Shown: positions 29,033 through 61,400 of the stretch, in pieces | Numbering within the stretch: position 1 is the first letter of the stretch | Layout: each line of letters begins with the position of its first letter | Source of the DNA: Planctomycetota bacterium | Lineage (GTDB): Bacteria; Planctomycetota; Phycisphaerae; Phycisphaerales; SM1A02 | DNA: 64,000 bases | Direction of reading: 5' to 3' | Assembly (NCBI GenBank): GCA_022574595.1 | Contig: JACZRS010000002.1 | Span: 124,001 to 188,000, forward strand | Notes under the pieces: model-generated | What the model was told of the DNA's origin: nothing | The model's database searches: none | What the model saw: only the letters and a program-made list of their open reading frames with translations | Made by a program: the position numbers and the translations under genes

Positions 29033-31804
29033 CTACTTATTCTCGGGATTGACAGGCACATCTACTATGTGCGGAAGGTATTCAAACGTAACAAACGGAA
29101 AAGGATCTTCCCAAGCACGGACGTCCGCTGCGTTGGGATCCCAACCCATCCACCAGAAAGAATGATAATGCTGAAACTCAGGAAGGTAACGCTCCATTAC
29201 TTCGTGTTGCGGATCAACAGGATTGGAAAGGAAGACGCCGATTTCAGTTGGCGAATTTGCTGCTGGGTGAAGAGATTCCGGCTGCATATCTATGGAGATT
29301 GCTGGAGGAAGACTGGGGTTGGTAATGTCAAACTCTGGACTGGGAAAATGTGTAGCAGGATCGAAGCCTTCGATTGAATCGATGATCGGCTGAGGCACAT
29401 AGTTCTTTGACGCATCTCGCACGAATTCTGAAGGCTCCACAACTAAATCGGGAGCTGGCACCCATTCATTAATCTCTTCAAAAGAAGAATCACGGACGAA
29501 CTTTGAGGGTTCTTCTTTAACTGCTGGTGCAGGAATCCAACCGATCGATTCTTGAGGAGTTTCTTCGAGCTTGATATCGAGGTTTTCTAACTCGAATGGT
29601 TCCGGGGCAGTCGGCTCGAGAGGCGACGAATTGGATTGGGGTTCTGAGATTGAATTAAATTCATCTCTAGTTGGTGCCGGTTCAAACCAGCTATTGCTGG
29701 TGTCAATATCAACAGGAGCATTTGATCCCATAGGATCTGAATCAATTTGCTGTGAGTCTACATCAGCTGGGAAATCATATTCCTCCAGCTTGATAGGCTC
29801 GTTTGCTGTGACGACCGACTCAACGTCAAAAGGGGAGTTGGCTTCCGGGGCAGCAGCTTCAACTGCTACATTTGCTTTAGGTGTAGATTGATCAACTGAT
29901 TCCATATCAGTTGGTTGGGAAAACGCCGGTGCAAACTCATTTTCCCACTGGCCGCTATTGGACGGTGCTTGTGAAACAGAATCGTCGTTTAAGTCTTGCG
30001 GCCAAGAATTAGTATTAACCGGCTCATGATGCATGGTCAATGGACGCTGAATATGAAGCATGCTCGCTTCAGGGCTTCGCTCAACTCGTGGCATACGATT
30101 TAAGAATACGCGTTCTAATATGCTACGCTCATGCCCCTTATCCTTGGAACCAACCAGATCCAGTCGGAACCTAACTGCTTCCATTTGATTTGCGTTCAAT
30201 CTCAGCGAGTTATTGATGTGCCACAACGCAAGATCCGCATCACCACGATTAAGTGCATCTTGAGCGGACGAGTTCTGGTAAGCGGTCAACTTGTCATTGC
30301 TAAACGGCAAGAGTTTCTCTCGCGCGCCAATACGAAGAGCATCGCCGTAGGCAAGCAGATCTTCGCCTAGCTGCCAAAGGATATCGTCTTTCACGATGGA
30401 CGGAGTAATAAGGAAGATGATCTCATCACGATCGATTGAGTCTTCCTGACCACGGAAGGCAGCTCCCAGAATGGGTATATCACCAAAGAACGGAATCTGT
30501 CTGCGACTTGTTGATATTGATTCTCTGAATAAACCACCAAGAACCAGCGTGTGACCGTCACGAATTCTGACGTTGGTTGTTATCTCATTGGTTAACTCAT
30601 CGGGGATGGTAACCAACAGGCCGTTGGAATCGGTAACACTACGAAGGCTCGCCTCTGAAACGCTGGGAGATAGTTCCAAGCGGATCATCCCATTCTTTGA
30701 GATGAAGGGTCGGAAGACTAACTGAATACCTGTATCGAGGAACTCAACGGTTTGAGTTGTTGTTGTTTGTGTAGAAGTTGTTGAAAGATAACCAACACGA
30801 GCACCGACAAGCACCTCTGCACGCTGCCTGTTCAAGCACATGACCTTAGGTCGTGCCAAGACAGTTGTGTCGCTGACTTCATCAAGTACTTTAACAAATA
30901 TGCTTATGTGGTCAGTTATTACACCTATCTTGAGTCCAGCCGAACCTGCTGTATTACCCACAATAGAATCAACAACGGCAACTTCATTACCGCTGGGCTG
31001 AAAACCTGTGTCAGCATTATCACCATTAAGCAGATTTCCAACTGCACTCAATGGATTCGTCAGGTCCAGAAAATCTAAATTACTAAGTAAGGTGAAGTCC
31101 ACACCAAATGCGTTGGCCTCAGTTAAAGCAGTTTGAAGAATCGTAGCTTCAACCAATACCTGCTGCGGAGCAACATCAAGCTCATTTAATAGCGAAGAAA
31201 TTGCTTCGAGATTTTCAGGATAGTCGTTGACTACTAAAGTTGCTGCGAATGCGAAGGTATCTTCGCCACCATTGCCGATATCGGGCCTGAAACCAGCATC
31301 AACATCACCAAGTGAAGAAGCTACGCCTGCTTCACTTAAAAGTGGAGTTATGAGCGCAACAGTATCAGCAGCAGAAAGGTTATCGAGACGGAAAATCTTG
31401 GCTTCTCTTTGGCGTTGAGCTTCTATAATCTCGTTGTACTGCGCTTGAGTATAGATGTAGATGAAGTTACCTACTTCGTGATAACGGTATCCGTTGGCAC
31501 GCAGAATGGCATCCAGCGCTTCGTAGAACGTTACATCAAAGAGGTTGGCGGTAACTGTCGCATTAATGTCGTTGCCTGCGATGATGTTCTTCTCGCTTTG
31601 AATTGAAAGCATCTGAAGAACTTGAACAAGGTCAGTGTCTTGGACTGAAAGATCAACTGTCTCATAATCCGTAACATTAACTTTGGCATCCTTACTCGCC
31701 TGGGCTAGCGCACTTGCCGGTGCAGCCGCAACAACGCAGACCGCACAAACGGACGCGATGCGCTTAAAAAAACCTTGCCGAGAACTTGGTTTGTTCGTGT
31801 ACAT
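29033..31804 (-). CDS. PilQ/GspD-type secretin with long acidic C-terminal extension
   Basis: The 923-residue protein starts at ATG 31802-31804 (AGGAG site about ten bases upstream). A frame reaching 31966 lacks this. It has a signal peptide (residues 1-35, ending ASALAQ), an STN/N0 domain (about 45-120), an N1-type domain (135-220) and the secretin beta-domain (about 300-472) with VLVGARVGYL, TLVLGGLFRES and IPFFGDIPILGAAF. After one TPR-like pair (511-550), residues 575-860 are Pro/Glu/Ser-rich and disordered, with a repeated W(I/V)PAP...EPS(K/E)FVRD block (756-772 and 781-797). The tail (868-915) is aromatic-rich. It forms the outer-membrane pore of the pilus or secretion machine. Confidence 0.92.
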   Translation of the reverse strand: MYTNKPSSRQGFFKRIASVCAVCVVAAAPASALAQASKDAKVNVTDYETVDLSVQDTDLVQVLQMLSIQSEKNIIAGNDINATVTANLFDVTFYEALDAILRANGYRYHEVGNFIYIYTQAQYNEIIEAQRQREAKIFRLDNLSAADTVALITPLLSEAGVASSLGDVDAGFRPDIGNGGEDTFAFAATLVVNDYPENLEAISSLLNELDVAPQQVLVEATILQTALTEANAFGVDFTLLSNLDFLDLTNPLSAVGNLLNGDNADTGFQPSGNEVAVVDSIVGNTAGSAGLKIGVITDHISIFVKVLDEVSDTTVLARPKVMCLNRQRAEVLVGARVGYLSTTSTQTTTTQTVEFLDTGIQLVFRPFISKNGMIRLELSPSVSEASLRSVTDSNGLLVTIPDELTNEITTNVRIRDGHTLVLGGLFRESISTSRRQIPFFGDIPILGAAFRGQEDSIDRDEIIFLITPSIVKDDILWQLGEDLLAYGDALRIGAREKLLPFSNDKLTAYQNSSAQDALNRGDADLALWHINNSLRLNANQMEAVRFRLDLVGSKDKGHERSILERVFLNRMPRVERSPEASMLHIQRPLTMHHEPVNTNSWPQDLNDDSVSQAPSNSGQWENEFAPAFSQPTDMESVDQSTPKANVAVEAAAPEANSPFDVESVVTANEPIKLEEYDFPADVDSQQIDSDPMGSNAPVDIDTSNSWFEPAPTRDEFNSISEPQSNSSPLEPTAPEPFELENLDIKLEETPQESIGWIPAPAVKEEPSKFVRDSSFEEINEWVPAPDLVVEPSEFVRDASKNYVPQPIIDSIEGFDPATHFPSPEFDITNPSLPPAISIDMQPESLHPAANSPTEIGVFLSNPVDPQHEVMERYLPEFQHYHSFWWMGWDPNAADVRAWEDPFPFVTFEYLPHIVDVPVNPENK

Positions 31805-31965
31805 ATCCGGTGAACTCCTACCTGCCCCGTTACGCCTCCACAACGCTATAAATCGCATACTCCGCGAACTCCTGGAGACTCTCTGATCAATTTCAATCGT
31901 CAGCCTCACACTTGAAGGCCTCAGACTGATGCCTCTTATCACTAAACCCAAAGTGAGCAAACTCA

Positions 31966-32352
31966 TTACTCATTAGGCTTCCGCTCTTGTGAGAAATCGG
32001 CCTCTTGATCCTGTAACTTGGCTCGATCTTGCTTCAACACGTCAACCAAGGTGGGTTTGGGGAAGTACCTATCACTTACAAGGAATGGATCACGTATCGG
32101 AGATAGAGGCACATCTCCCTGCATGTGATTCAAGCGTGGATTATCGGCACTGCCGGGCGCAAGGGCCGGTAACATCTTTTGCGCTTCCGTATTAAACTTC
32201 TTATCATCCGCTACCGCAGTGCGAGGCATATTGGACGTTACGATAAGCCGGGCCCATAACAACAGCCCTAACACGCAAACAACACTACACGCACTAACTA
32301 GCTTGCGATGGGCAATAATACTAATCAATATGCGGCGTAAAAACACGGGCAA
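31966..32352 (-). CDS. Bitopic protein in the PilP position
   Basis: From TTG 32350-32352 the product has 128 residues. An AGGAGG site lies eight to nine bases upstream inside the end of the PilO-like gene. A longer frame to 32451 would overlap that gene by almost 100 bases. One membrane helix (LVSACSVVCVLGLLLWARLIV, shown here by its core) lies near residues 18-38. A Pro-rich extracytoplasmic tail includes SPIRDPFLVSDRYFP. RDPF-like motifs also occur in PilP and GspC, which link the inner-membrane PilN/PilO complex to the secretin. Position directly before the secretin supports the same role, but PilP is a lipoprotein and this is not. Confidence 0.65.
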   Translation of the reverse strand: MPVFLRRILISIIAHRKLVSACSVVCVLGLLLWARLIVTSNMPRTAVADDKKFNTEAQKMLPALAPGSADNPRLNHMQGDVPLSPIRDPFLVSDRYFPKPTLVDVLKQDRAKLQDQEADFSQERKPNE

Positions 32353-32353
32353 A

Positions 32354-32932
32354 TCAGGAATCCTCCTCACCCGATTCGGGCCTATAGAGAAGCTCCAGTA
32401 CGATGCTCGCTCGTATACGATGGGCGTGGCCATCCAATTCAGACGCAGCAAATCGAGTCATAGTGACGCTGGCAACACGCAGAGGCCTACTTTGTGACTC
32501 AGCATCAAGAATCAGCGCAAATACTGCGCTAAAACTCGAAACCATATCGATCGTTATTGGGACATAGCTTAGGCCAAGATCAGAATCAATTACCGCATCC
32601 CTGGATTGGCCCAGGGTGAACAGTTGATCCCAAACCGTTTCTTGGTCAACTGAAAGCGTAAGCTCATTCATCAAGCCAGGGATGTCAGGCACGGCCGGTA
32701 GGTCGTCAATCTGGGCCTGCCGTGATCTGACTATATTTCTGAGCCCAACATTCTGCTGAGCGAACTCATCAGCAAGGTCCGTATAACTAATTGCTTGTCG
32801 TTGAAGTTGAGCAGCTTCTTTGGTAAATGCCTCTGCGCTGCAATAAGCAGGTAGCACAAATACCAACCACCCAGCAATTGTTGTTACGACTAGACAGAAA
32901 AAGCCAAGGATCACACGGCTGCTACTTAACAT
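32354..32932 (-). CDS. PilO-like pilus assembly protein
   Basis: The 192-residue product starts at ATG 32930-32932, seven bases after AAAGGAG. An ATG six bases earlier is too close to that site. One N-terminal membrane helix (VILGFFCLVVTTIAGWLVFV) is followed by a coiled-coil stretch (FTKEAAQLQRQAISYTDLAD) and a compact C-terminal domain, the standard PilO/GspM arrangement. It overlaps the PilN-like gene by 11 bases. It should pair with the PilN-like protein in the periplasmic part of the inner-membrane platform. Sequence identity to PilO is weak and the call rests on layout and gene order. Confidence 0.78.
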   Translation of the reverse strand: MLSSSRVILGFFCLVVTTIAGWLVFVLPAYCSAEAFTKEAAQLQRQAISYTDLADEFAQQNVGLRNIVRSRQAQIDDLPAVPDIPGLMNELTLSVDQETVWDQLFTLGQSRDAVIDSDLGLSYVPITIDMVSSFSAVFALILDAESQSRPLRVASVTMTRFAASELDGHAHRIRASIVLELLYRPESGEEDS

Positions 32933-33554
32933 TGACATGCTCCTTTGACTTATGGCTAATTCTGCTGGCAAAGTCGCGTGCAGCATCTAAATTAATGTGA
33001 AAACTGATTTGAAAATCACGAGCTGGTCTGCTCCGCACAATACGAGATGAGGTGTAATCCAAATTGATGTTATTGTAAAAGGTTGAGTCTTCCAGGTTCA
33101 CTGCAAATTGCGACACATCTGCATCTGTAGCGGCAAAGCCACGCAATTTTGCTTGTAATGTTCTTGAACCATGCTCCGCTTGGTTGGTAGACAGAATCAG
33201 ATCATCAAGTGTAACACTCTCTGGCATATTGTTGATTAAAGACGCAAGAATGAGAGTTGATTGCATATGAAACGCTTCATTACTTTGGCTAAGCAATAAA
33301 TTGTTTAGCGTAGATAGTTCTGCACTCTGCTGGCCAGCTCGATTTCTAATTGCAAGTGCATCGTTAGCCTGATTACGCGCTAATTCTAGATCATTCTTTG
33401 CTCTGACAATACTCAGTTGTGCGTGTGCAATTGAAATGACAAACATCGCAATAACCACTGCACAAGCGATTATGTAGCGCTTGCAAATGGTTGCTGCGTG
33501 ATTGCTGGCAACTAAATGCTCCGGTAACAGATTGATTGGGTGCTGCTGCTTCAT
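32922..33554 (-). CDS. PilN-like pilus assembly protein
   Basis: The 210-residue product begins MKQQHPINLLPEHLV at ATG 33552-33554. The INLLP motif is the PilM-binding peptide of PilN proteins. The ATG overlaps the PilM stop (ATGA), so the two are coupled. A membrane helix (residues 26-47) is followed by a coiled coil (NDLELARNQANDALAIRN) and a ferredoxin-like periplasmic domain. It should join cytosolic PilM to the periplasmic alignment complex. Confidence 0.85.
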   Translation of the reverse strand: MKQQHPINLLPEHLVASNHAATICKRYIIACAVVIAMFVISIAHAQLSIVRAKNDLELARNQANDALAIRNRAGQQSAELSTLNNLLLSQSNEAFHMQSTLILASLINNMPESVTLDDLILSTNQAEHGSRTLQAKLRGFAATDADVSQFAVNLEDSTFYNNINLDYTSSRIVRSRPARDFQISFHINLDAARDFASRISHKSKEHVNVK

Positions 33555-34711
33555 GCTGCCTTTCCCCACCAACGGGCAAATACATTCGGCATGTTAAATC
33601 GCTTTGCTATAAGCCCACGAAGGCTCAGGCCGATTGCGCTGGCCCATGCGGTTGCAGGAGAGGCTTGGTGCTTTGATAGTGTTCTAATTTGCTTGGCTAA
33701 ACTTTGAAGACCGAGAGCTGGCTCATCAAACATAACCGGCAAATTACTGCCTTGGGCAAGAGCTTCACAAAGCCCTGGCTCATATGCTTCAGTTCCGGTT
33801 AAGATAATTCGTTGAATTGATTTTCCACGAAATGATGAGCCATAAGAACTAAGACAAAGCATGATTTGCTTTACAACATCACTTAATAGCGGGCGTATTG
33901 CTTCATATACCCCTCGGTCTGTCTCAGGATCTACGCTGGGATGGGGATCGTAGTTTTCAGCACTCGCATTTATCCGAGCTGCCCTCAAGTTGTGCGCAGC
34001 TGTAATATCAAGTTTTAGATAGTCCGCAACAGCGCGATCAAACTGCTGCCCGACTGACGTAATTCGCTTGCATAGAGCAATATGATTACCTCTAAGGGCC
34101 ATTACAGTTGTTGTCGAAGAGGCGAAATCGACAACCGCTCGAACATCTGGCCCATCATCTTCTCGTCTACTACCTCGACTCATCACCCTGGCGATCGCTG
34201 AAAAAGATGGTTCAACGGCAATGGGCTTAAGGCCTGCAGCTATTACTTGCTCAAGCCAATAATTGATTCGTGAATGTGGTGCTGCAACTACGAGAATTTC
34301 CTGGCGGCCATCACTTTCTTCTCTGATTGCGCCTGTACAAATATAATCAATCTTCATTTTATCCGGATCGAATCCAAAGCGTTTGACCGCTTCTATCATT
34401 ACCGCTTTAGCAATGGCTTCTTCCGCCAATGCCCCAGGCAGATATAAAGAGTTAAGCTGAATATCACTTGGGGGCAAACACACAACACATTTGCGTGATG
34501 TAAATCTGCCGTTGGCAAATGCGCTTTTAATGCGATCGCTTAAGTGGGCAGTATTGCTCTTGTAGTCATCACCACTGGACATATCAACTTCACCGACTCC
34601 AACGACGGTCAAGCTGCCTTGTGATTGGCATACTTGCAGCATTTTTATGCTGCCATTGGCGATATCAATCCCCACATGCCCGATTGACGGTGTGAAGCGT
34701 CCTGCTAACAC
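33551..34711 (-). CDS. pilM: Type IV pilus assembly protein PilM
   Basis: The 386-residue actin-fold protein starts FTPSIGHVGIDIANGSIKML, the ATP phosphate-binding strand of PilM. CVVCLPPSDIQL, the KRFGFDPDKMKIDY region and AVVDFASSTTTVMAL are further actin-like blocks, followed by IILTGTEAYEPGL and FDEPALGLQSL. It sits on the cytosolic face and binds the PilN peptide. The family is about 350 residues, so this is slightly long at the C-terminus. No PilB, PilT or PilC gene is in the window, so the motor must be encoded elsewhere. Confidence 0.92.
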   Translation of the reverse strand: MLAGRFTPSIGHVGIDIANGSIKMLQVCQSQGSLTVVGVGEVDMSSGDDYKSNTAHLSDRIKSAFANGRFTSRKCVVCLPPSDIQLNSLYLPGALAEEAIAKAVMIEAVKRFGFDPDKMKIDYICTGAIREESDGRQEILVVAAPHSRINYWLEQVIAAGLKPIAVEPSFSAIARVMSRGSRREDDGPDVRAVVDFASSTTTVMALRGNHIALCKRITSVGQQFDRAVADYLKLDITAAHNLRAARINASAENYDPHPSVDPETDRGVYEAIRPLLSDVVKQIMLCLSSYGSSFRGKSIQRIILTGTEAYEPGLCEALAQGSNLPVMFDEPALGLQSLAKQIRTLSKHQASPATAWASAIGLSLRGLIAKRFNMPNVFARWWGKAA

Positions 34712-34767
34712 CCCTACGCTCCCTTTACTAAAAACAGTCTAATTTCTCAACGTGTTTATAGCTTTTA

Positions 34768-35352
34768 TTAGAGTTTGGTTACTGTAAGCTTGCCGGTGAA
34801 TGGTGAGACATCAATCTGGTAGATCACATCCTGAACTTGCAATTGAATTTGTCCACCTGTTCCCGGAAGATTGCCCGTCATAATTGTCCCGCCAAGTGTA
34901 TCGTAAGTTATATATTGATTGGCACCATCAAAGTTCGAAATAATAATCGATACCCCATCAAAGCGATTCTCAGTTCTAAAATCTACAATGTATCGACCGG
35001 GTTCACCAACCACGCCTAGCGGATCGGAAATGAAGTCCGCGGTAGCGAGATCAAATGGAAGGTCAAAGTCAGCTTCAGTCATTCGCACGATGCAGTACCC
35101 ATAACCGTTGCCGCCTGCATCCTGCAAAAATTGAACACGACGATATTCCTGATTGGCAAGCGAGTCGGATTGCGCAAAGCTGAGATCCGCAATTAAAAGT
35201 CGTACCGCTGCCTGGGCAGTAAGATTATCTTGATGCACAAGGTGAGGAATCAGCAGAGCGCCTGCTATACCTAACAATGCTACGACAATCAGCATTTCTA
35301 TTAAGGTGTACGCACGCTTCAAACCGATTCGTGAGCGATGATAAATACTCAT
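34768..35352 (-). CDS. GspH/FimT-like minor pseudopilin
   Basis: The 194-residue product has a type III signal (RIGLKRAYTLIEMLIVVALLG), with Glu5 in the YTLIE motif and a prepilin-peptidase-type junction (A in place of the usual G before the mature start). The hydrophobic helix is about 25 residues. The remainder is beta-rich (YRRVQFLQDAGGNGYGY, GQIQLQVQDVIYQIDV), as in GspH/FimT. It follows the 35356 gene by three bases. It probably forms part of the tip or priming complex of the pilus or pseudopilus. Confidence 0.85.
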   Translation of the reverse strand: MSIYHRSRIGLKRAYTLIEMLIVVALLGIAGALLIPHLVHQDNLTAQAAVRLLIADLSFAQSDSLANQEYRRVQFLQDAGGNGYGYCIVRMTEADFDLPFDLATADFISDPLGVVGEPGRYIVDFRTENRFDGVSIIISNFDGANQYITYDTLGGTIMTGNLPGTGGQIQLQVQDVIYQIDVSPFTGKLTVTKL

Positions 35353-35355
35353 GGA

Positions 35356-36009
35356 TTACTCCCTAGCCTCACTATGAAACATAGCAGCATCTACTAATAC
35401 AGAAGCCTTATCAGAACCATCGGACGAATCCTCAGCCCATGTGAGCGTGATCCGAAGCCTCTGCGCCCCATTGTAAGGGCTGCCAGTCCTCTCAACCCGC
35501 ATGTCCGATATCCCTGTTGCCAGGACTGTAGGAACACTCCTGGGATTGGCGCGCCACTGATTACAAAAATTAACGCTTTTAAGATCAGCGCGCTTTAGTA
35601 CAACTGGGATAGATGAATTTTCATCTAGGCCCATGCGATATAAGACAATCGTGCCAAGTATTTGGCTATGGCTGATTACAGCAACCTCATCAATGCTGGG
35701 TTTGCCAGGCACTTGGTGATCTTCCAGCCAGATCACCATCTCTAAATACGGCGAATTGTCTCGATCGTGAATTGCCAGGACTTCTACGCTTCGTCCAATT
35801 AATTCTGCCAAACCGTGAATGAATTGATTGTTGGTTTCGTGCTTTGCTGCAATGAGGCCGCTATCAACGCTTTGAGCGTTGCTGAATCTTGGTGTGACAA
35901 CAACCGCAGCAACCGTTAGAGTGGCAGCTACTGCTGTTAGTGTGAGCATGCCTGCAAGAGTTATCCCCAGATGATGCTGCGATTCGTTACTGCGGCATAG
36001 ATAAGACAT
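35356..36009 (-). CDS. Pseudopilin-like protein without Glu5
   Basis: The 217-residue product has a short basic start, then QHHLGITLAGMLTLTAVAAT. The LG-ITLAG junction resembles a prepilin-peptidase site, but position five is Gly and not Glu. GspK-type tip pseudopilins also lack Glu5. The rest is a mixed alpha-beta domain (ELIGRSVEVLAIHDRDN, RLRITLTWAEDSS) with no family name that I can give. It lies between the pilin with its terminator and the GspH-like gene, which supports membership of the minor pseudopilin set. Confidence 0.6.
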   Translation of the reverse strand: MSYLCRSNESQHHLGITLAGMLTLTAVAATLTVAAVVVTPRFSNAQSVDSGLIAAKHETNNQFIHGLAELIGRSVEVLAIHDRDNSPYLEMVIWLEDHQVPGKPSIDEVAVISHSQILGTIVLYRMGLDENSSIPVVLKRADLKSVNFCNQWRANPRSVPTVLATGISDMRVERTGSPYNGAQRLRITLTWAEDSSDGSDKASVLVDAAMFHSEARE

Positions 36010-36025
36010 TTTAGTACATGTTTTA

Positions 36026-36062
36026 ATAAGAAAATAAACGCCGGCATGTTTCCATGCCGGCG
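36026..36062 (-). terminator. Strong rho-independent terminator after the pilin gene
   Basis: On the minus strand a perfect ten-pair stem CGCCGGCATG / CATGCCGGCG with a four-base loop is followed by TTTATTTTCTTATT. It starts 38 bases after the pilin stop and precedes the pseudopilin genes, so most transcripts should end after the pilin. Confidence 0.9.
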
Positions 36063-36100
36063 CTTGAAAATTAACTTTTAACTAAAGCATTCATCGAGCT

Positions 36101-36574
36101 TCAGTCAGCATTGCCATCGGCGTCGAGGTCAACAAGCGCAAGGCCGGTGACATCGACTGCATAGATGCTGATTCCCCAACCGTTGGGGTTTGCCCACACC
36201 CAACCTACGGTATCAGCAGCGGCACCAGCAACTGTGCTTGAACCACCTTGCAACGGATTGTTAGGAGGTGACTGAAGGTAGTCGCCATCGTAGTCAAGAT
36301 CAAAGGCAAGATCGCCTGTAGTTAACTGACCCCAAGGCGCCAAAGCGTCAGTGAGTGGTTCAAAGACACGATTGGGCCATTGAACGTTGTGCAATTCGAT
36401 CTGACTTCGGATCGTTTGAAGCTGAGTCACAACGCTGGCTTCCATTGCTTCTTGTGAAGCATCGGTGAACTGCGGGATGACGATTGCGGCTAAGATGCCG
36501 AGGATGACTACGACGATCAGAATTTCGATCAAAGTGAATGCCCGGTTAACCCGGTTTTTAATGTTCGTACGCAT
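36101..36574 (-). CDS. Type IV pilin / GspG-like major pseudopilin
   Basis: From ATG 36572-36574 (AGGAG site about ten bases upstream) the product has 157 residues. A frame reaching 36682 is not supported. The type III signal is RAFTLIEILIVVVILGILAA with Glu5 present. The Ala before Phe is less common than Gly. The mature domain has the GspG-type helix (VVTQLQTIRSQIELHNVQWP) and a C-terminal Asp-rich loop (DLDADGNAD) like the calcium site of GspG. Being alone before a strong terminator fits a highly expressed main subunit. Confidence 0.9.
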   Translation of the reverse strand: MRTNIKNRVNRAFTLIEILIVVVILGILAAIVIPQFTDASQEAMEASVVTQLQTIRSQIELHNVQWPNRVFEPLTDALAPWGQLTTGDLAFDLDYDGDYLQSPPNNPLQGGSSTVAGAAADTVGWVWANPNGWGISIYAVDVTGLALVDLDADGNAD

Positions 36575-36970
36575 GTGAAAAGAACTCCTAAGTGACAACA
36601 GAAAAATTAAACCTCCAGGAGAGCCATCAGGGATACAGCAAATTGAGACGCTTATCCCCCCTTTGACCCTGTCCGGGATCATGCCAAAACATGACCCGGC
36701 CCTGAGAATTGTCGCCCCAGCCGCTAGGCCAAGCCAACTATTGCACTACCAAAGTACACGATTCATATCGACTGCCTGCAAATCGCTGTGGAGACCTCAG
36801 CACAAGATAGACCAGCCTGCGGCCGCGCAAGCGAAATAGCTTGACTATGTGATTACCTGGTTACTCTAAATTGACAGGCTGAAGATCCGCTAATTCATTT
36901 CGTAGGCGTATCGGACTATACGACAAATAATCGGGGCCATTACTAAGGTCCGATTCTTGAAGCATAAATT
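36575..36970. promoter_or_regulatory. Pilin upstream region with a hairpin
   Basis: About 396 gene-free bases precede the pilin and should carry its promoter and leader. At 36673-36699 CCGGG(A)TCATG pairs with CATGACCCGG around a six-base loop, with one bulged A and no T run. Nearer the start, GGGATA and TATCCC can pair on the minus strand. No sigma-54 -24/-12 site or riboswitch consensus could be confirmed by eye. Confidence 0.4.
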
Positions 36971-41371: not shown

Positions 41372-42262
41372 TCAACTCAGAACTTGATCCGCAAGATTCA
41401 TAGCTTGTCCCATGTAGCTACGCCCAAATAGATTTACGTGATTTAGCACATGGTAAAGTTGGTAGACCGCTAAACGCGCGTCGATATTCACGTGGTCGCT
41501 GACACTGTTCTCGTAGGCTTCAAAGCAGCAATTTGGGAATCCGCCAAAGAGTTTCATCATGGCAATATCCGCCCAACCATCTCCTATGTAACACGCAGGA
41601 TCAATCACAGCAATGCGCATCTTTCCGTTATCATCTATAGCGGGCAGTGCATTACCCGACCAAAGATCACCATGTAAAAGCGAGGGTTTGGGGTTGGTTG
41701 GCAAGAATTCGTCAAGTCGATCAATAACTGCTGTGACTTTTCGCTGTTGGTTTTGATTTATTAGATTTCGGTTTATCGTAAGGTTAAGCTGATGGCCGAG
41801 CCTTTGCTGTTTATTAAACTCAACCCAATCATCGTTCCAACCATTTGGCTGAGGCGTAAGTCCAATATGGTTATCAGTTTCAAAACCGAAGCGATTTTGT
41901 ACATCGTGGCTATGTAGTGCTGCAAGCTCTTTACCGAAGCTCGACCACGCAGCGTCATCTACCGAAGCAGTTGATATTGAGGTCATTATTATTGCTGCTG
42001 TATCTTCTATAGTGAATACACCTAAAGGCTTTGGCGTTAAAACTGTTTGGGTTTTATTTATTGCGTCTAGTCCTGCTGCTTCCTCAGTGAACAAATGCTC
42101 ATACTTAGCGTTATTCATTTTCACAACAAGCGAACTGTCATCGGATAGTGTTACTTTGCGCACACTATGAATACATCCGCCTGACAGATCGCATGTTTTG
42201 GTGATAGTGCTGTGAAAACCAGCTTTTGCCAGGATTCTTTGTAGTAATTGCTGATCGGTCAT
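41372..42262 (-). CDS. Fructosamine/ribulosamine 3-kinase family protein
   Basis: The 296-residue product has the protein-kinase-like fold of FN3K and its bacterial relatives: LVVKMNN (ATP lysine), DNHIGLTPQPNGWNDDWVEF, LLHGDLWSGNA (catalytic loop) and AVIDPACYIGDGWADIAM (metal Asp). Bacterial members mostly phosphorylate ribulosamines or erythrulosamines on glycated proteins, which starts their removal. The start overlaps the tyrosine phosphatase stop by ATGA. That pairing recurs in other bacteria and fits a deglycation pair, discussed under findings. Confidence 0.9.
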   Translation of the reverse strand: MTDQQLLQRILAKAGFHSTITKTCDLSGGCIHSVRKVTLSDDSSLVVKMNNAKYEHLFTEEAAGLDAINKTQTVLTPKPLGVFTIEDTAAIIMTSISTASVDDAAWSSFGKELAALHSHDVQNRFGFETDNHIGLTPQPNGWNDDWVEFNKQQRLGHQLNLTINRNLINQNQQRKVTAVIDRLDEFLPTNPKPSLLHGDLWSGNALPAIDDNGKMRIAVIDPACYIGDGWADIAMMKLFGGFPNCCFEAYENSVSDHVNIDARLAVYQLYHVLNHVNLFGRSYMGQAMNLADQVLS

Positions 42263-42738
42263 TTTGATTTTGTCAGCAGTTCATCAAGCAGGGCATCGCA
42301 AGCAGAATCTATAAGTCTATATATGGTTTCAAAACCGTCCTCTCCGCCGTAATACGGATCAGGTACTTCGCGTAACTGACAATTAGGGTCAGCATCAAGC
42401 AGCAAGCTGATGCGTTGTTCGGGTATTCCAATCTGAAGTAGGTTTTCACGGTTTGCCTCATCCATACATATTAAATGGGTGAAGCGTTCTAAATCTTTTT
42501 TAGTCACTTGACGTGATCGGCTGGGCAGATTTATGCCATATTTCCCCGCTATTTGCCGCGATCTCGGATCGGGCAATTCCCCAACATGCCAGCCCCCAGT
42601 TCCTGCGGACTCAACGACGAATTCATGAGCTACGCCTCTTTGATTTACTTTATGCAGGAATATGCCTTCAGCAAGTGGGCTGCGGCAAATATTACCCATA
42701 CAAATAAAGAGGATTGTAATTTTCTCTGTTTCTGTCAT
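42259..42738 (-). CDS. Low-molecular-weight protein tyrosine phosphatase
   Basis: The 159-residue product has the CX5R active site CMGNICRSP (Cys13, Arg19) and the general acid in DPYYGGEDGF. Its length matches the LMW-PTP family. Downstream of a Wzc-like gene it would normally be read as Wzb, the cognate phosphatase that resets the tyrosine kinase. Translational coupling to a fructosamine-kinase-family gene supports a second reading as a sugar-amine phosphatase, as known for human LMW-PTP-A. It begins 50 bases after the WecA-like gene ends. Confidence 0.92.
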   Translation of the reverse strand: MTETEKITILFICMGNICRSPLAEGIFLHKVNQRGVAHEFVVESAGTGGWHVGELPDPRSRQIAGKYGINLPSRSRQVTKKDLERFTHLICMDEANRENLLQIGIPEQRISLLLDADPNCQLREVPDPYYGGEDGFETIYRLIDSACDALLDELLTKSK

Positions 42739-42788: not shown

Positions 42789-44495
42789 CTAATTATTGGG
42801 TTTAGCATCATCTTGAGATGATATGCTTGACGATCTCGAAACAGAAGCAGCAATTTGCTGGCGGCGGGCAGCTTTTACTGCTATTAACCCTATGAATCCA
42901 AACAGCACCAATGCAATTGCATAAATCACTCGCACACGTAACTCGGTTCGCAATACTAACGCAGCTAATGTCACCCCTACTAATGCAAATGCCACACCGA
43001 TCCCGTACATTGCAAACACAGCTCTCTTTACGCCTCCAAGCGCACGTTTTAGTTGATGATGAATGTGTTGATCATCAGCTGAGGACAAAGAAATTCCAGC
43101 CAACCATCGCCTGATAATGGCAAGCATTGCGTCCATAATGGGTATTGAAAAGACAATTAGTCCAGCAAATACAAGGTGAGTTTGCCCTTGTTCGCCTAGC
43201 ATTAGGATCACAACAACACAGAGATATCCAAGTAGTAAACTTCCCGAATCGCCAAGAAAAATAGATGCTGGACTAAAATTGTGAGGCAGGAAACCAAGGA
43301 CCACTCCCAATAAAGCCATGCACAATACTATACGAGCCCCGGTTAGCGTACCTGCATTTAGGGGCGTAGATACAACCCCAGTATTAGGGTTATAGCTAAG
43401 CGAATACCCTACGGGCATGTCAGGTTTTTCCTGCAAGTAACCTTCTTCTATTAGAGTGTCTATATCACGAGGCAATTCATCATTATTATTACTTAAGTAT
43501 CGTTGAACACTTGCGCGAACTAATTGCTTATTCGATCTTGCCAATTCATTGCGCTTATCAGCTGCGCTTACATCTCCACTGTCCGGATCATAGGTAATTA
43601 CCCAACCCAATGGAGCAGTTGGCAGGTTTTTGTGCGGTTGATTTTCGGTTAGTGCGTCAAGGTTCGGAGGAGGTAAGCCGTTGAGTTGTTGGTATTGATA
43701 GACATTAGTCTGTATTTCTATTGCCACGACCTGTGCTTCCGCTTCTTGTGCATCGACAGCTAAGTTTGCAGTAGGCGCAAGCAGGAGGCAAATAGCAAGC
43801 AACCCAACCGCAACAATCGCAACTACACCTGATAGTAAACCATCAAGACCATCAATGAAATTCGATGCATTGCATCCGCCCAGAACGAACAATGCTATCA
43901 AAACCGTACCCGTCCAATAGAACACGTGGCTGTTTAAGAGGTGCAAGGATCCCAGGGTAATAATCACATCATCTGGGCTTCCCATAAACGGCCTTAAAAC
44001 ACCTTCAGCAACGCGCACTCCAATATCATTTATTGCCAGGGCTGCTGCTGCGACTAATTGGCCAGCAATTTTCAGTCGAGGATCCCACCCCCAAAGATCA
44101 TCTGCTAAACCCGTAAACATGATCGCCACCATGCCCAGAACAATCGCAATCGGCAGCGGTCGGTAGCTAGTAGCGATATCTTCAATTTGCAGATAGCTTG
44201 TGGCAATTGCAGCTATTAGTCCAATAAATACAGCTATTCCCCCGAGTGATGCTACAGGATATGGGTGGGCTTTGCGCCCTGAATCCGGTTTATCAACTGC
44301 GCCCGCTGCAATTGCAGCCCGACGCACCAGGGGCGTACACAATAGCGTGACTAAGAAGGCAACTATAAAAATCAGCGCATAGCTATTAAGAAGATCCATC
44401 GCTGATACTGCGATAGATTGAGGTTCGCCAGATGAAAATACAATATCATCTTGGGAAAACTCCGTTAAATCTTGCTGTGCTAGTATCGCCAACAT
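42789..44495 (-). CDS. WecA/TagO-like undecaprenyl-phosphate glycosyl-1-phosphate transferase with inserted domain
   Basis: From ATG 44493-44495, overlapping the epimerase stop as TAATG, the product has 568 residues. It starts a glycan on undecaprenyl phosphate from a UDP-sugar. WecA/MraY motifs are present: GLADDLWGWDPRLK, NASNFIDGLDGLLSG, SPASIFLGDSGSLLLG and DDQHIHHQL. After the helix following NFIDGLDG there is an insert of about 135 residues (about 249-386) absent from normal WecA. By family topology it faces outside the membrane. It holds two similar units, each with a (N/D)LPxxxxxLxExG-like helix and a GWVITYDPDSGDVSA or GYSLSYNPNTGVVST strand pair, recalling GspG-type ends. Confidence 0.88.
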   Translation of the reverse strand: MLAILAQQDLTEFSQDDIVFSSGEPQSIAVSAMDLLNSYALIFIVAFLVTLLCTPLVRRAAIAAGAVDKPDSGRKAHPYPVASLGGIAVFIGLIAAIATSYLQIEDIATSYRPLPIAIVLGMVAIMFTGLADDLWGWDPRLKIAGQLVAAAALAINDIGVRVAEGVLRPFMGSPDDVIITLGSLHLLNSHVFYWTGTVLIALFVLGGCNASNFIDGLDGLLSGVVAIVAVGLLAICLLLAPTANLAVDAQEAEAQVVAIEIQTNVYQYQQLNGLPPPNLDALTENQPHKNLPTAPLGWVITYDPDSGDVSAADKRNELARSNKQLVRASVQRYLSNNNDELPRDIDTLIEEGYLQEKPDMPVGYSLSYNPNTGVVSTPLNAGTLTGARIVLCMALLGVVLGFLPHNFSPASIFLGDSGSLLLGYLCVVVILMLGEQGQTHLVFAGLIVFSIPIMDAMLAIIRRWLAGISLSSADDQHIHHQLKRALGGVKRAVFAMYGIGVAFALVGVTLAALVLRTELRVRVIYAIALVLFGFIGLIAVKAARRQQIAASVSRSSSISSQDDAKPNN

Positions 44496-45496
44496 TAGGC
44501 TAAAGACTCCGCAGATGAACGCTTGCATTTTATCTGCTTCGCTAAGTCATTTATGGTTTGCGTCAGAGGAGTAGTAGCTCTAAATCCAGTTGCGTTTTGG
44601 AGATGACTCAGATCTGGTTGGCGATTTTTGAGGTCATCAAAATCCGGGCCAAAGGCAACATCATAAGGAATATAGGCTATCTCAGATTGACTTGAAAGAG
44701 TTTTGCATACCAATTTCGCTAGTTCGCCGATTTCAATTTGCTCATCATTACCGATATTGAATACTTCACCCAGGCATTTTGGATTATCTAATAGTGTTGG
44801 AAGCAACTTAACAACATCACGCACATCGCAAAAGCACCGAGTTTGCCTGCCGTCGCCATACACTTCTATTTTCTTGTCCCCCAATGCAGCAGATACAAAT
44901 CTAGGCAGAACCATCCCGTATTGTCCAACTTGACGTGGCCCAACTATATTAAAAAACCGTGCGATCACAACTGGAAGATCATGCTCACGATTATGCGCAA
45001 GTGCTAAATGTTCATCTATTGATTTTGAACATGCGTAGGCAAATCGGGTTTGACTCGGTGGCCCGTAGGTAACGTCATCTTTTTCATTAAACGGTGTCTT
45101 TGTCGATTTGCCATATACCTCTGAGGTAGAGGCAATTAAAATTGGCGTTGATGCAGAAGATGCGAACTCCAGGATTGCTGAAGTTTCCAGCACATTGGTG
45201 TGGATGGTGTGAATTGGATCTTCAACCACCAAACGAACACCCACCGCAGCCGCAAGGTGATAAATGCTGTGAAACTGAGCAGGATCGAGATTGTTAATGG
45301 CTTGGCCAACCTTAGCATTGATAATCGTGAGATTATCACGAGGCAGATCATCAAGGTTAGATAGACGCCCAGTAGATAAATTATCAATAACCGTAACGCA
45401 TTCACCGCGCGATAGGAGCTGCGCTACAAGGTGAGAACCTATGAACCCTGCACCGCCGGTCACCAATGTAACTCGCGTTTTTGATTTCCGACTCAT
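44495..45496 (-). CDS. NAD-dependent sugar-nucleotide epimerase/decarboxylase
   Basis: A 333-residue extended short-chain dehydrogenase. TGGAGFIGSHL binds NAD, IASTSEVYG supplies Ser/Thr, and YACSKSIDE is the YxxxK catalytic motif. The R-containing RQTRCFCDVRDVV block and lack of a membrane segment fit UDP-glucose 4-epimerase or UDP-glucuronate decarboxylase types. Which reaction it performs cannot be decided here. It feeds the sugar donor for the exopolysaccharide and is coupled to the WecA-like gene by TAATG. Confidence 0.88.
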   Translation of the reverse strand: MSRKSKTRVTLVTGGAGFIGSHLVAQLLSRGECVTVIDNLSTGRLSNLDDLPRDNLTIINAKVGQAINNLDPAQFHSIYHLAAAVGVRLVVEDPIHTIHTNVLETSAILEFASSASTPILIASTSEVYGKSTKTPFNEKDDVTYGPPSQTRFAYACSKSIDEHLALAHNREHDLPVVIARFFNIVGPRQVGQYGMVLPRFVSAALGDKKIEVYGDGRQTRCFCDVRDVVKLLPTLLDNPKCLGEVFNIGNDEQIEIGELAKLVCKTLSSQSEIAYIPYDVAFGPDFDDLKNRQPDLSHLQNATGFRATTPLTQTINDLAKQIKCKRSSAESLA

Positions 45497-53502: not shown

Positions 53503-54462
53503 TTAAGCTGCAGGCTCTTCCTCAACCACAAGTTTCTTTAAGAGCCACATAATCCCTATGTATAATAAGAAAGCTGGAACAAGCCAAAGCAATCCAATAA
53601 ACGTGTGAAATTCTCCAACCGCAAGATTGCTATCATAAATGCTGAGCACTGCGAGTGTAGCGACTCGCAATATGTTTACGAATATAGCTGTTGGCACACC
53701 AAGTAATACTAATACCACTTGTTGCCAGGCATGCTTTAAGCCTGTGTATGCCATGGCAACCCCTAACGCCATAAAAGCCATGAGCATGCGCATACCAGAA
53801 CACGCCTCTACGATATTAATGGGTATCATCTCGCCATCATTCCATATTTTCAGGAGATTGCCGCTTCTATCATTATCAATAGCTATGAGATTTAAGAAAT
53901 AGTGGCTTCCGATTGCGGTGATATCTTGCATCGGAAAGGTTACATATTGAATTAGCCTATCAGAGATCATTTGGCCGAACACGCAAAGGTACAGCAGTGG
54001 GAACCAAAGAATCATCATGGCCCTAAAGCCACAGAACAAGAGTACTATGCCAAACAAAGCTGAGGCTAATCCAGCTGCCTGAAGGTTGTGATGTCGAATC
54101 GCTTGTGGACCTAACCAACAAAACATGTACCACCCTGAACCAAGTATGATCGGCACGAGTCCTATCCATGTGGTCTTAAACGGCGCTGATAATATTCGTT
54201 CACGCTTTAGGTATACGAAATAGCCAGCAATAAAAGGTATGACAAGCGTATGCCCCCAGTCCGCTTGATGCTTAAAAGCGTGGCGTAACTGGGATGACAA
54301 GAAATGCCAATAGAGCAAAACAAGCAATCCGAGAATGATTGCTGTGCCGATTGCAATACTGCGCAATTGGGCAGAGTCAATTTTAATGGTTTGAGCAGCA
54401 AGCACAGGCACAGCAACTGACGATTCGTCACTTAAGGTCGCGTGCTGGCTCTTGTCGTTCAC
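53503..54462 (-). CDS. Exosortase (archaeosortase/exosortase family transpeptidase)
   Basis: A 319-residue, about eight-helix membrane protein from GTG 54460-54462, with GGAGGG five bases upstream. A longer frame to 54699 looks non-coding and leaves a 250-base gap behind this start. The catalytic triad is complete: Cys221 in VEACSGMRM, Arg266 in NILRVATL and His286 in FHTFIGL. It should cut C-terminal sorting tails and may join the proteins to a surface glycan. No clear PEP-CTERM protein is found in this window. Confidence 0.92.
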   Translation of the reverse strand: MNDKSQHATLSDESSVAVPVLAAQTIKIDSAQLRSIAIGTAIILGLLVLLYWHFLSSQLRHAFKHQADWGHTLVIPFIAGYFVYLKRERILSAPFKTTWIGLVPIILGSGWYMFCWLGPQAIRHHNLQAAGLASALFGIVLLFCGFRAMMILWFPLLYLCVFGQMISDRLIQYVTFPMQDITAIGSHYFLNLIAIDNDRSGNLLKIWNDGEMIPINIVEACSGMRMLMAFMALGVAMAYTGLKHAWQQVVLVLLGVPTAIFVNILRVATLAVLSIYDSNLAVGEFHTFIGLLWLVPAFLLYIGIMWLLKKLVVEEEPAA

Positions 54463-54712
54463 AGACCCTCCGCCGTTCAACTGATACTGCTGCTCTTGGG
54501 GGATCATCAACGTAGTCCAAAAGGGACTGAGGCAGCCCCTACGCTGGAGCTTTTTGTTTAGTCTCGCCTCCTTGATGCATGTCAGCATTTTATTGGCTCT
54601 TTCGAGCCCCAAGGTGATACTCATACGGGTGCTGGGTCGGGTATGGTTCGGATGAATCGTCCAGCAATTGTGCCTAACACGGGAAGGCAAGAATTTCATG
54701 GCTTAGGCTGCT

Positions 54713-57737: not shown

Positions 57738-58457
57738 GTGAAAACCATCGGCCTACTGGGCGGGATGAGTTGGCAATCGACTATCACCTACTACCGAGCG
57801 ATCAACCAAATCGTCAGGCAAAAACTCGGAGGGCAACACTCCGCAAAGGTCATCATCAACAGCGTTGACTTTGATGAGATTGTTAAGCTTCAAAATGATG
57901 AACGATGGGACGCACTGGCTGAGATTCTTATTGATGCAACTAAATCGCTAGAGCACGCAGGCGCAGATTTACTAGTTATCTGCGCCAACACAATGCACAA
58001 GGTTGAGCCTCAGATAAGTAAGGCTTGCAGCATTGAAATTGTTCATATTGCGGACGCTACCGCAGATACGGTTATTAAGGCGGGGATAAAAAACATTGGA
58101 TTGATTGGCACCAAGTACACTATGGAGCAGGAGTTTTACAAAGGAAGACTTGAGAAAAACCACAGCCTATCTGTGATTATTCCTAATGAGACTGACAGAA
58201 AGATAGTGCATAAAGTGATATATGATGAACTTTGTTATGGACAAGTAATAGAATCCTCACGTGAGGAGTTTAAGAGAATCATAACTAGCCTCAAGAAGGA
58301 GGGGGCAGAGGGAATCATTTTAGGTTGTACGGAATTTGGTTTGCTTATCCATCAGGATAATGTTGACTTGCCAATCTTTGATACTACATTGATTCATGCT
58401 ACCAGCGCGGTTGAAACAGCTCTTGAATCAAAGACTAAAAGCGGCATGTTAACCTGA
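57738..58457 (+). CDS. Aspartate/glutamate racemase family protein
   Basis: A 239-residue PLP-independent racemase. The two catalytic cysteines are in ICANTMHK (Cys82) and LGCTEFGLL (Cys197). GLLGGMSWQSTITYYR is the standard start of aspartate racemases (YgeA/RacX type). GTG 57738 is used, ten bases after a clear GGAGG site. Substrate (Asp, Glu or another amino acid) cannot be stated. It overlaps the convergent acidic-protein gene by nine bases. Confidence 0.88.
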   Translation: MKTIGLLGGMSWQSTITYYRAINQIVRQKLGGQHSAKVIINSVDFDEIVKLQNDERWDALAEILIDATKSLEHAGADLLVICANTMHKVEPQISKACSIEIVHIADATADTVIKAGIKNIGLIGTKYTMEQEFYKGRLEKNHSLSVIIPNETDRKIVHKVIYDELCYGQVIESSREEFKRIITSLKKEGAEGIILGCTEFGLLIHQDNVDLPIFDTTLIHATSAVETALESKTKSGMLT

Positions 58458-61400
58458 CAGAAGTGCGATCATCCAAACGATTGGAACCCAAAATAGCGTT
58501 GACAGTGCTATCCAATCAACGATCGGCCTCATTTTATCCGGCACATATCGAAGTGGGTAGTTAGCTCGTCTAAGGACGGGAACTGCAAATGGTTCAATGC
58601 GCTTTATAGTTCTCTGCAGTATTACGAGCTTTCCTAAGCGTCCGCCTGGCTTTGAATTGTTCTCATCATCGTCTTCCTCACTGTCATCCCTCTCATCCCG
58701 CTTTGTAGCTTTGTTCTTCTTACTATCTTCTTTCTTTTCTTCATCAGAGTCACCATCATCTGATGTTTTTTTCTCTGAGTCATCGCTAGATGCATCTTCT
58801 GCGAATTGCTCTTGATCTTCTTCTGTTTCAGAAGCCTCAGCTTCACCTGATGATTCTGTATCAGCAGTACTGGCAAAGCTCTCTTCGCCCTCAGTATCGG
58901 AAGCGCCTTCGGCATCGGCGTCTACACTCTCCTGTACATCTGGCTCCGATTCTGTGGCTGAACCATCTGCTTGTGCTTCATCGGACTCTTGCGAAGCATC
59001 CGATTCCATCAACTCCGCAACTTGCTCAGAAAGATCTTCATCCAGGTCTGATATACTTCCATCAGTTGGTGATTCTTCAACAGTGCTTTGGCTTTCCTCA
59101 TCATCCTCAATAGAAGTAGAATCGCCATCAACTAAACTTTCTTCTGGTTCGATCGTTTCTTTCGCAGCCTCAACTGATGGTTGCTTATCTTCAGCTTCAC
59201 TATCAGAATCTTCTTGAGAATCGCTTGCAACCAATTCTTCGATCTGTGAGGCCAAGCTGTCTATTTCTTCTTCAGTCGCTGCGGATTTCTTTTCAGAATC
59301 CGCCTCAACATCGGCTTCTGCTACCTCTTGCTGCTCCGCAGTCAAAGCCTCATCCTCAACTATGGCTGGTTCCGATTCGAGATCGGCAATTTGAGGTTCT
59401 TCTTCTGATTTAACAGCTTCTTCAACCTCTGATTCCTCTGTTGCCGCATCATCGCTAGGATTTAAAATGTCATCTAATTGTGCGGATATTTCGTCAAGAT
59501 CAGAATCGCCTCCTTGTGATTGATCGACAAGTTCATCTGTCGATTGCTCAACTGAGTCAATTAGAGATTGAATTTCATCGCTTGGTGATTGGGGTTCTTG
59601 AGTTGATTCGTTTTCCACACTTGCCACAGATTTATCTGCATTCACAGGTATCAATTGATCATCATCAGCTTGAGTTTCTTGAGCAACCACAACCTGGCTT
59701 GGTTTTGCCGCACTTACTTCGGTTTCTCTAGTAGTTTTTGCTTGTATTATTTCATTTAGTTCACTGGTCAGCTTCTTAAGATCGTCATTTGAGCTTGATG
59801 ATGGCGTGTTTGTGAGATTTGCAAAATCAGTTGCAGCAGATGCTTTTGTTATGATCCGTTTGGGCTGCTGCTCAGATGCAGATTCGTCAAGTGTTTCAAT
59901 TATATTGCTGATGTGTTCAGATAATTGCTGGGCATTAAATGTTTCATGTTCAGTTGATTCCGGGGATGCTAATTCGGGTTCAGATATCCCTGCACCTGGA
60001 TTGGGATCGGCAGGAGCGGTTACAGCTGACTCTGGCAATGAATCTTCATCATCTTTTTTCTCATTGGCTTCGAAATCTGTCTCATCGCTATCAGCTTCAT
60101 CTTCAAATGATTCAACTTCCTCCGCTTGGTTAGAATCACTTTGTGCGGACAATTGGGGATCTTGAAGAGAATCTAATTCTTTTACTACTTCGATTTCAAC
60201 ATCATCGCTCTGTTGCTGATCCTCCGCTTGGGCAGGACTTGATGTTTCGCCTAGTTCTAAGACTTGATCAACCAGCGACAGCTCACGCCCCTCAATCCCC
60301 ATAGGTGTAGCTTCAGGCGGCAATTCACCAGGCTCAGAAGTTTCAATACTTGAAGACTCACTTCTAATAGGCTCCTCTTCTACCTGCGATTGATCGTCCT
60401 CTAAGCTATCAGTTTCCGCTTTGAGATCATTATCTGTTTCGGCAATTACCTCGTGATCTTGAGTTTGATTAGTTTGCGATGAGGCCTCTATTACTTCATC
60501 AACAACACTTTCAGCAACAGCTTTTACATCATCTTTTTCAGCAGTAAATGGCTGCTCACTCTCAGACTCAGGTGATTCTGCAAAGGACTCTTCTGCTGAT
60601 GCATCAGGTGTTTGTTCAGCTTCATCTGTTAAGTTGGAATCTAAAGCTGGCTCAAATGATTGATCCTGCGATTCATCTTCAAAGTTCGTCTGTGTTGCTT
60701 CAGCATCTATGGGGGGAGATTCAGTTGGCAATTCCAGGGTCGGAGACATTTCCGGGGATGGCGCTTGCAGTTGATCTGCTTCTGGATCAGGTTCATGGTC
60801 TGGCTCAGCTGTTGGCTGATCACTGAAATCATCTGCTGACTCACTACTTATGTCAGCAACCAGTTCGGCCTCGGGTTCGGAATCGGGTTCTGGCTCCGGA
60901 ACCGCTTCCGATTCGGGTTCAGACCCTGCTTTTTGTGCAGCATCATAGATTGAATCAACTTCACTTGCAGAATAAGAAATTGCATCAGCTGCAAGTTCTG
61001 ACTCTGACTCTGGTTCTGGATCGTCTAGATGCGCAGCTTCGCTGGAAGCCTCAAATGAAGCATCGCTTTGGGAATCTTCAGTTGTTGCGTGGCGCTCTTG
61101 CAAATTTTCTTGCAGGGCATCCTGCGGAGATTCATTACTATCAGAGCCAGAATCTACATCTGCATTAGTATCAGTATCAAATGTTTCCTGGTCAGCTAAG
61201 TCGTTAGCTGGGGTTTGCTGTGATTCCGCTTGTGAATCCTCTTGCGAAGCGCTATCTACCTCATCTGCTTCCTTTGTAAGATCTTTGATTTTTTCGCTGA
61301 AAGAACGATCCGCACTAGCATTCGCCAGCTTGGCCATGGCTGCGGAAAGCTTATCGATTTTGGATAATGATCGATCAACATGCGATAAGTCGCCTACAGA

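Follow-up and report, generated by a model that had tools for sequence, protein, structure and literature searches.

A WecA-like transferase of Planctomycetota carrying two pilin-head-like units in a predicted outer-face loop

In a 64,000-nucleotide stretch of DNA from a Planctomycetota bacterium (the window), a WecA-like transferase carries an insert of two tandem units that resemble the heads of type IV pilins and pseudopilins. The explanation that best accounts for our results as a whole, to which we give a probability of about 0.6, is a single gain of outer docking or regulatory heads by an initiating enzyme. Specifically, a WecA/MraY-type enzyme encoded in an exosortase-linked exopolysaccharide locus would have acquired a tandem pair of such heads in an outer loop, between the helix after its NFIDGLDG motif and the helix before its GDSGS motif, so that catalysis would proceed in the cytosol while both heads project from the outer face. 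There, the heads would serve as a protein–protein docking or regulatory module that couples the first polysaccharide step to components of that machinery in the periplasm, the candidate partners being a PrsT-like tetratricopeptide repeat (TPR) protein, a chain-length kinase, exosortase partners or nearby pilus parts. Within this reading, we regard it as very probable that the insert is functional and not neutral, and lean only modestly towards docking or regulation as its role; the architecture hints that sugar-chain initiation is coupled to further proteins beyond the membrane.

The gene lies on the minus strand (42789..44528; 579 amino acids with an ATG start, assigned from its open reading frame (ORF) and Pfam), and the plus-strand frame over it gives a translation full of stops. 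Its product belongs to the polyprenyl-phosphate sugar-1-phosphate transferase family (Pfam Glycos_transf_4, PF00953; 90.5 bits, E = 1.5e-25, cut-off 27) and scored 84.4 bits (E = 8e-24) against the NCBIfam model ECA_wecA (TIGR02380), which is below the curated cut-off of 326 bits, and we therefore label it WecA-like and not WecA proper. The enzyme probably starts a cell-surface sugar chain. Ten of its residues (D143, D144, N220, N223, D226, D229, D427, H488, H490 and H491) were invariant in 30 of 30 aligned rows, these being the best-scoring loci of a transferase search in 101 genomes of the family, and they define four sites, all read from the minus strand: Asp143-Asp144 (44097..44102), the NxxNxxDGLD motif at residues 220–229 (43842..43871), Asp427 of GDSGS (43248..43250) and the histidine motif HIHH at residues 488–491 (43056..43067). 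In MraY, residues of this kind are described as catalytic and as sited in cytoplasmic loops (PMC5039524). With the correspondence between the two enzymes assigned here by motif, we infer that the enzyme has kept a working active site on the cytosolic side, and the claim of the preliminary description of this DNA that all transferase motifs are kept is borne out.

The insert distinguishes this enzyme from nearly all of its relatives. Across the stretch at residues 249–398, the three proteins that carry it have 150, 149 and 149 amino acids, compared with 16–24 in the other 27 of the 30 aligned rows, and about 130 residues are thereby added to the loop. We delimit the insert, which is predicted to be extracytoplasmic, at residues 253–394 (43347..43772, minus strand) from loop length and from a confident AlphaFold2 (AF2) model of residues 254–397 (pLDDT 88.9). 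The preliminary description had placed the extra residues at 249–386; the extra loop is real and is missing from the large majority of the homologues found, and the numbering differs because that description ended the gene at 44495, omitting 11 residues. The insert sits between two hydrophobic helices, both assigned from hydropathy, that connect the NFIDGLDG loop with the GDSGS loop: one at residues 231–251 (43776..43838, minus strand; hydrophobic over 231–249), which stops just before Pro252 and heads towards the first unit, and one at residues 395–413 (43290..43346, minus strand). Because these two loops correspond to cytoplasmic loops of MraY, with one helix leading out and the other leading back, the insert should lie on the outer face of the membrane, as was first proposed for it, and the charge of the insert loop (9 K/R and 19 D/E) agrees with this placement. 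The G+C content of the insert region (0.43–0.45) is similar to that of the remainder of the gene.

Structural comparison and profile searches both point to pilin heads. The AF2 model of the insert (from three sequences) was confident (pLDDT 88.9, pTM 0.76), and although a Foldseek search with this model returned no match at E ≤ 0.001 (a pilin stood at rank 7, E = 1.4), re-ranking of the Foldseek list by a second structural aligner, VIA-align, placed type IV pilins or pseudopilins at all of ranks 1 to 10 (Z 7.4 to 3.6 over 67–74 residues of the predicted model). The best of these was PulG (Z 7.4, r.m.s.d. 2.5, 74 residues; below the tool's caution line of Z 8), followed by the major pseudopilin of Vibrio vulnificus (7.2), PilJ (6.7) and PilA4 (5.5). 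These four rows at Z ≥ 5.5 stood clear of the remainder, in which ranks 5, 7 and 9 all hold one and the same pilin in fused form and rank 10 (Z 3.6) is level with the first unrelated chain (Z 3.5); two of the top ten rows align to the second unit. A profile built from the units gave at least 10 bits to 10 of 44 pilin heads and a profile of the whole insert did so for 6 of 44, with 0 of 880 shuffled sequences reaching this level with either profile (the 44 heads lie in loci obtained by means other than the insert profile; 14 of the 58 scored were omitted because their loci had been retrieved with it). Among the genomes of the order, eight others were weakly matched by the insert profile (E = 3e-5 to 8e-4), in all eight cases at ORFs with a prepilin motif.

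Searches of sequence libraries by themselves did not identify the fold. The insert of the window had no match to the pseudopilin family T2SSG (PF08334, curated cut-off 21 bits), for which matches occurred only in the inserts of the other carrier genus, g37, and below the cut-off (12.1 and 14.9 bits; E = 0.028 and 0.2). A profile search of the Protein Data Bank with the insert gave seven matches up to E = 10, none of them pilins and all attributable to chance, and a Pfam search for the N_methyl prepilin signal found none in the insert or in the whole protein. With no prepilin signal, the insert is best described as pilin heads and not as a pilin. We hold its pilin-head identity to be highly probable, which supports the likeness to GspG-type pseudopilin ends noted in the preliminary description.

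The transferase is one host of a portable pilin-head-like module that exists in the phylum. Counting the window's own genome in each case, the unit profile matched 25 of 392 genomes of the phylum at E ≤ 0.001, and the insert profile matched 16 of 397 genomes of the class. A prepilin motif, as defined by our search pattern, was carried by only 6 of the 38 distinct ORFs behind the module matches (own-genome match included; the ORF table has 39 rows with one ORF duplicated, and three of the 41 loci L079–L119 gave no local match), and the match at L090 is probably spurious. None of the ten module proteins scanned with Pfam contained PF00953. In one of the hosts, L079 (genome G435), a stretch of 646 residues has about five tandem heads as counted by eye and no prepilin motif, the insert profile being mostly covered (E = 1.5e-9) and T2SSG scoring 37.9 bits; L094 and L097 have two heads each behind a membrane helix. 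These three share with the transferase the module, its tandem arrangement and the lack of a prepilin motif, in hosts that are TPR-like or unnamed. Further pilin-head-like units occur, singly or in pairs, at the end of membrane-anchored or TPR-like planctomycete proteins (L094, L097, L108, L112 and L116), and also at the C terminus of proteins that, going by the loci, measure about 550–600 amino acids and have one or more membrane helices (L081, L082, L085–L089 and L091; L081 had no Pfam match above cut-off). Just beyond the end of the window, on contig 10 of the same genome, a 199-amino-acid ORF that has a hydrophobic stretch at its N terminus and one head-like unit (L035:1282-1878; E = 7e-4) is that genome's best unit-profile match outside the insert.

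The neighbourhood of the gene resembles exosortase/PEP-CTERM exopolysaccharide loci as described in PMC1569441, with which it shares exosortase, PrsT-like TPR, kinase-like and export-like genes. Between 44495 and 56392 on the minus strand, NCBIfam comparisons indicate an epimerase/dehydratase-type enzyme, a tyrosine-autokinase-like protein, a PrsT-like TPR protein, an EpsI-like protein (our own label), an exosortase and an export-like protein; the exosortase (53503-54699) scored above the 8TM_EpsH cut-off and its neighbours mostly below equivalog cut-offs. On the other side lies a Wzb-like low-molecular-weight tyrosine phosphatase (42259..42738, minus strand; below cut-off). The preliminary description had proposed co-occurrence with exosortase operons as a test of its idea, and this does not discriminate: an exosortase homologue lies on the transferase contig, about 10 kb away, in eight of eight insert-free relatives tested (G008, G019, G020, G022, G028, G030, G031 and G091), as it does in the carrier G036; in G087, also a carrier, each of the two genes has a contig of its own. 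The contact with export, exosortase or pseudopilin proteins that the same description inferred is for us a candidate role. Parts of the gene order of this region also recur in the stretches compared from G008, G022, G030, G031 and G036. Since insert-free relatives share the exosortase neighbourhood, we regard this context as permissive and not explanatory: the typical genes of such loci do not explain the insert. Several other features of these regions were recorded, namely an exosortase homologue of G036 with one in-frame TGA in its aligned stretch (G036:C18:70124-71269); a fusion of a reverse transcriptase with a trypsin-like protease in the same genome (L049:10442-12247; PADLOC RT-Protease_XI, E = 1e-141), sitting between DUF1015 and serA (our own labels), which in the window are 36 bases apart; and, in the window, a 1029-amino-acid ORF adjoining the cluster (58449-61538), for which neither Pfam nor NCBIfam gave a match at E ≤ 0.001, and an 825-amino-acid ORF consisting mostly of ankyrin repeats (8474-10951).

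A pilus cluster also lies in the window, on the same strand as the transferase (29033..36682, minus strand; secretin, PilN, PilM and two N_methyl genes, with a PilO-like gene, so labelled by us, at 32354-32986; the best NCBIfam match of the secretin is PilQ, below cut-off). It begins about 6 kb from the transferase, beyond three opposite-strand genes, its parts being about 6–14 kb off, and such parts are found near the transferase in relatives too. One could read the insert as a pilus coupling: the host helix and unit 1 would mimic a pilin, allowing a type IV pilus or pseudopilus machine to contact the enzyme or pull on it, and the state of the pilus would control when polysaccharide synthesis begins, much as the holdfast adhesive of Caulobacter is reported to be controlled by pilus signals (PMC12607857). 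In the alignments to PulG, the V. vulnificus pseudopilin and PilJ, residue n of the model corresponds to pilin residue n+24; this register puts Pro252 at about pilin position 23, adjoining Pro22 of the cluster's pilins, and the host helix could, on this reading, stand in for the pilin stem. However, Pro252 is present in 9 of the 30 aligned rows, six of them non-carriers, so the register of the proline may be coincidence, and the helix joining the enzyme to unit 1 is of low confidence in the full-length AF2 model (three sequences; mean pLDDT 44.7, with an unbroken helix at residues 221–283). The protein also lacks a prepilin signal, G008 and G030 have pilus-cluster genes near the transferase and yet no insert, and the carriers' own cluster pilins are unmatched by the unit profile (0.2 and −4.6 bits in the window's genome, G000; 2.3 and −3.5 in G036; −2.0 and −4.2 in G087). 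Moreover, the many non-pilin planctomycete proteins with the same module lower the odds, since a pilus partner is not implied by the fold. We consider pilus coupling unlikely, and its more specific form improbable, namely a pilin-headed enzyme with the helix replacing the stem in the Pro22 register, bound or loaded by a pilus or pseudopilus machine that would directly gate the start of polysaccharide synthesis.

Neither the exosortase nor the pilus context was accordingly retained as an explanation for the insert, since non-carriers share that context. With scores near zero, the cluster pilins of the carriers are not obvious donors of the insert. A donor within the cluster was also considered, because G008 has a second small pseudopilin at a site where the carriers lack one, as if it had moved into the enzyme. 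In G008, an extra pseudopilin of 112 amino acids lies by the major one (L050:9792-10130), and its head scored 27 bits with the unit profile. The gene beside this second pseudopilin was found in 24 of the 101 genomes, with a comparable second pilin, besides G008, only in G040 and G018 (among ORFs within about 1.5 kb on each side of the loci, some clipped by contig ends), and this origin was rejected.

To return to docking or regulatory heads gained once, the distribution of the insert is narrow and its carriers group together. The transferase was matched in 97 of the 101 family genomes, and among the matches listed the only rows spanning the insert were those of G000, G036 and G087. The insert profile recovered the whole insert in 2 of 301 genomes of the order and 1 of 397 genomes of the class (these draws overlap, and the other known carriers are apparently missing from them), and a scan of 84,980 species yielded two loci, both in Planctomycetota metagenome-assembled genomes, with proteins identical to those of G087 and G036. 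Genus g37 is represented by three genomes, of which G065, 66% complete, was without a full copy, and viral contigs gave no confirmed relative of the insert. A homologue on contig 23 of G013 has an open frame of 792 amino acids; its two matching pieces leave the insert no space, and its extra length is therefore terminal or merely open frame. A tree built from the core alone, with the insert left out (30 rows, 367 columns), united the three carriers in one clade with support of 99/98, and a single change on it suffices to explain the insert. The insert was thus most likely gained once, in the ancestor of two sister genera.

The two units of the insert are related to one another, as the preliminary description had recognised, and end where it had put their ends. 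Unit 1 spans residues 261–322 (43563..43748, minus strand; from sequence comparison and structural alignment) and unit 2 residues 326–388 (43365..43553, minus strand; from sequence comparison, with structural-alignment ranks 5 and 10 covering it), and in every one of the three carriers the score between them was higher than with any of 2000 shuffles (z 9.1, 21.5 and 23.0). Between the genera, unit 1 scored 109 and 102 against unit 1, unit 2 scored 129 and 127 against unit 2, and unit 1 scored 59–95 against the other genus's unit 2. Within the g37 proteins, the two units are as alike (114 and 117) as the unit 1s are across genera, and pair scores alone therefore cannot date the duplication. A tree of the six units split unit 1 from unit 2 with support of 93/96, which falls short of the starred level, and the G000 branches were long; on this sequence evidence, the duplication of the unit likely predates the split of the two genera.

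Divergence of the insert bears on whether it matters to the cell at all. Identity between g37 and the window is 41–43% in the insert, compared with 82–83% in the core, and the surface of the insert may therefore be loosely constrained. This fast divergence, the presence of the insert in three genomes only and the absence of a recognised function for the module would all fit a folded module that landed in an outer loop tolerant of it and persists as harmless. Against this stand synonymous sites that are saturated between g37 and the window (pS 0.84–0.88) with the insert frame still open and both units in frame, and dN/dS values between the two g37 species, rough owing to few substitutions, of 0.31 (insert), 0.23 (core), 0.13 (unit 1) and 0.45 (unit 2). 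Judged by these comparisons, the insert is under purifying selection and evolving faster than the core, and a neutral or merely tolerated insert appears rather unlikely. We consider it very unlikely that the heads help to dimerise the transferase, or shield or hand over the lipid-linked sugar outside, as might be entertained given that MraY is reported to crystallise as a dimer (PMC4790310) and that the insert comes after a helix bearing a catalytic motif, since the active site faces the cytosol.

Relative to known systems, the enzyme combines familiar parts in an arrangement for which a literature search on WecA, MraY and pseudopilin together found no paper; among the entries listed by related searches, judged from titles and abstract openings, none dealt with it either. 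It shares its membrane core and catalytic residues with WecA/MraY transferases (PF00953) and differs from them by a folded insert in the place of a short loop. With PulG/GspG major pseudopilins and type IV pilins it shares the head fold (a long helix, a short helix and a small sheet), but here there is no prepilin signal, and two heads stand in tandem inside an enzyme. A parallel is offered by modular pilins, which are described as joining a pilin-type module and another functional protein in one chain (PMC8179133), as here. Modular pilins graft a foreign module onto a true pilin, whereas here heads are grafted into an enzyme; with its heads internal and no prepilin motif, the transferase lies outside the definition of a modular pilin as an N-terminal pilin module with an extra domain.

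Control of initiating transferases is a recognised question because their substrates are limited and shared, and a phosphoglycosyl transferase that initiates synthesis can act as a control point, regulated through a protein bound to it, as reported for EpsW and EpsZ (PMC12802240). A clade-specific outer module would offer a direct handle on the control of such an enzyme, and the use of pilin-type heads as a portable module on the outer face would be the reverse of modular pilins.
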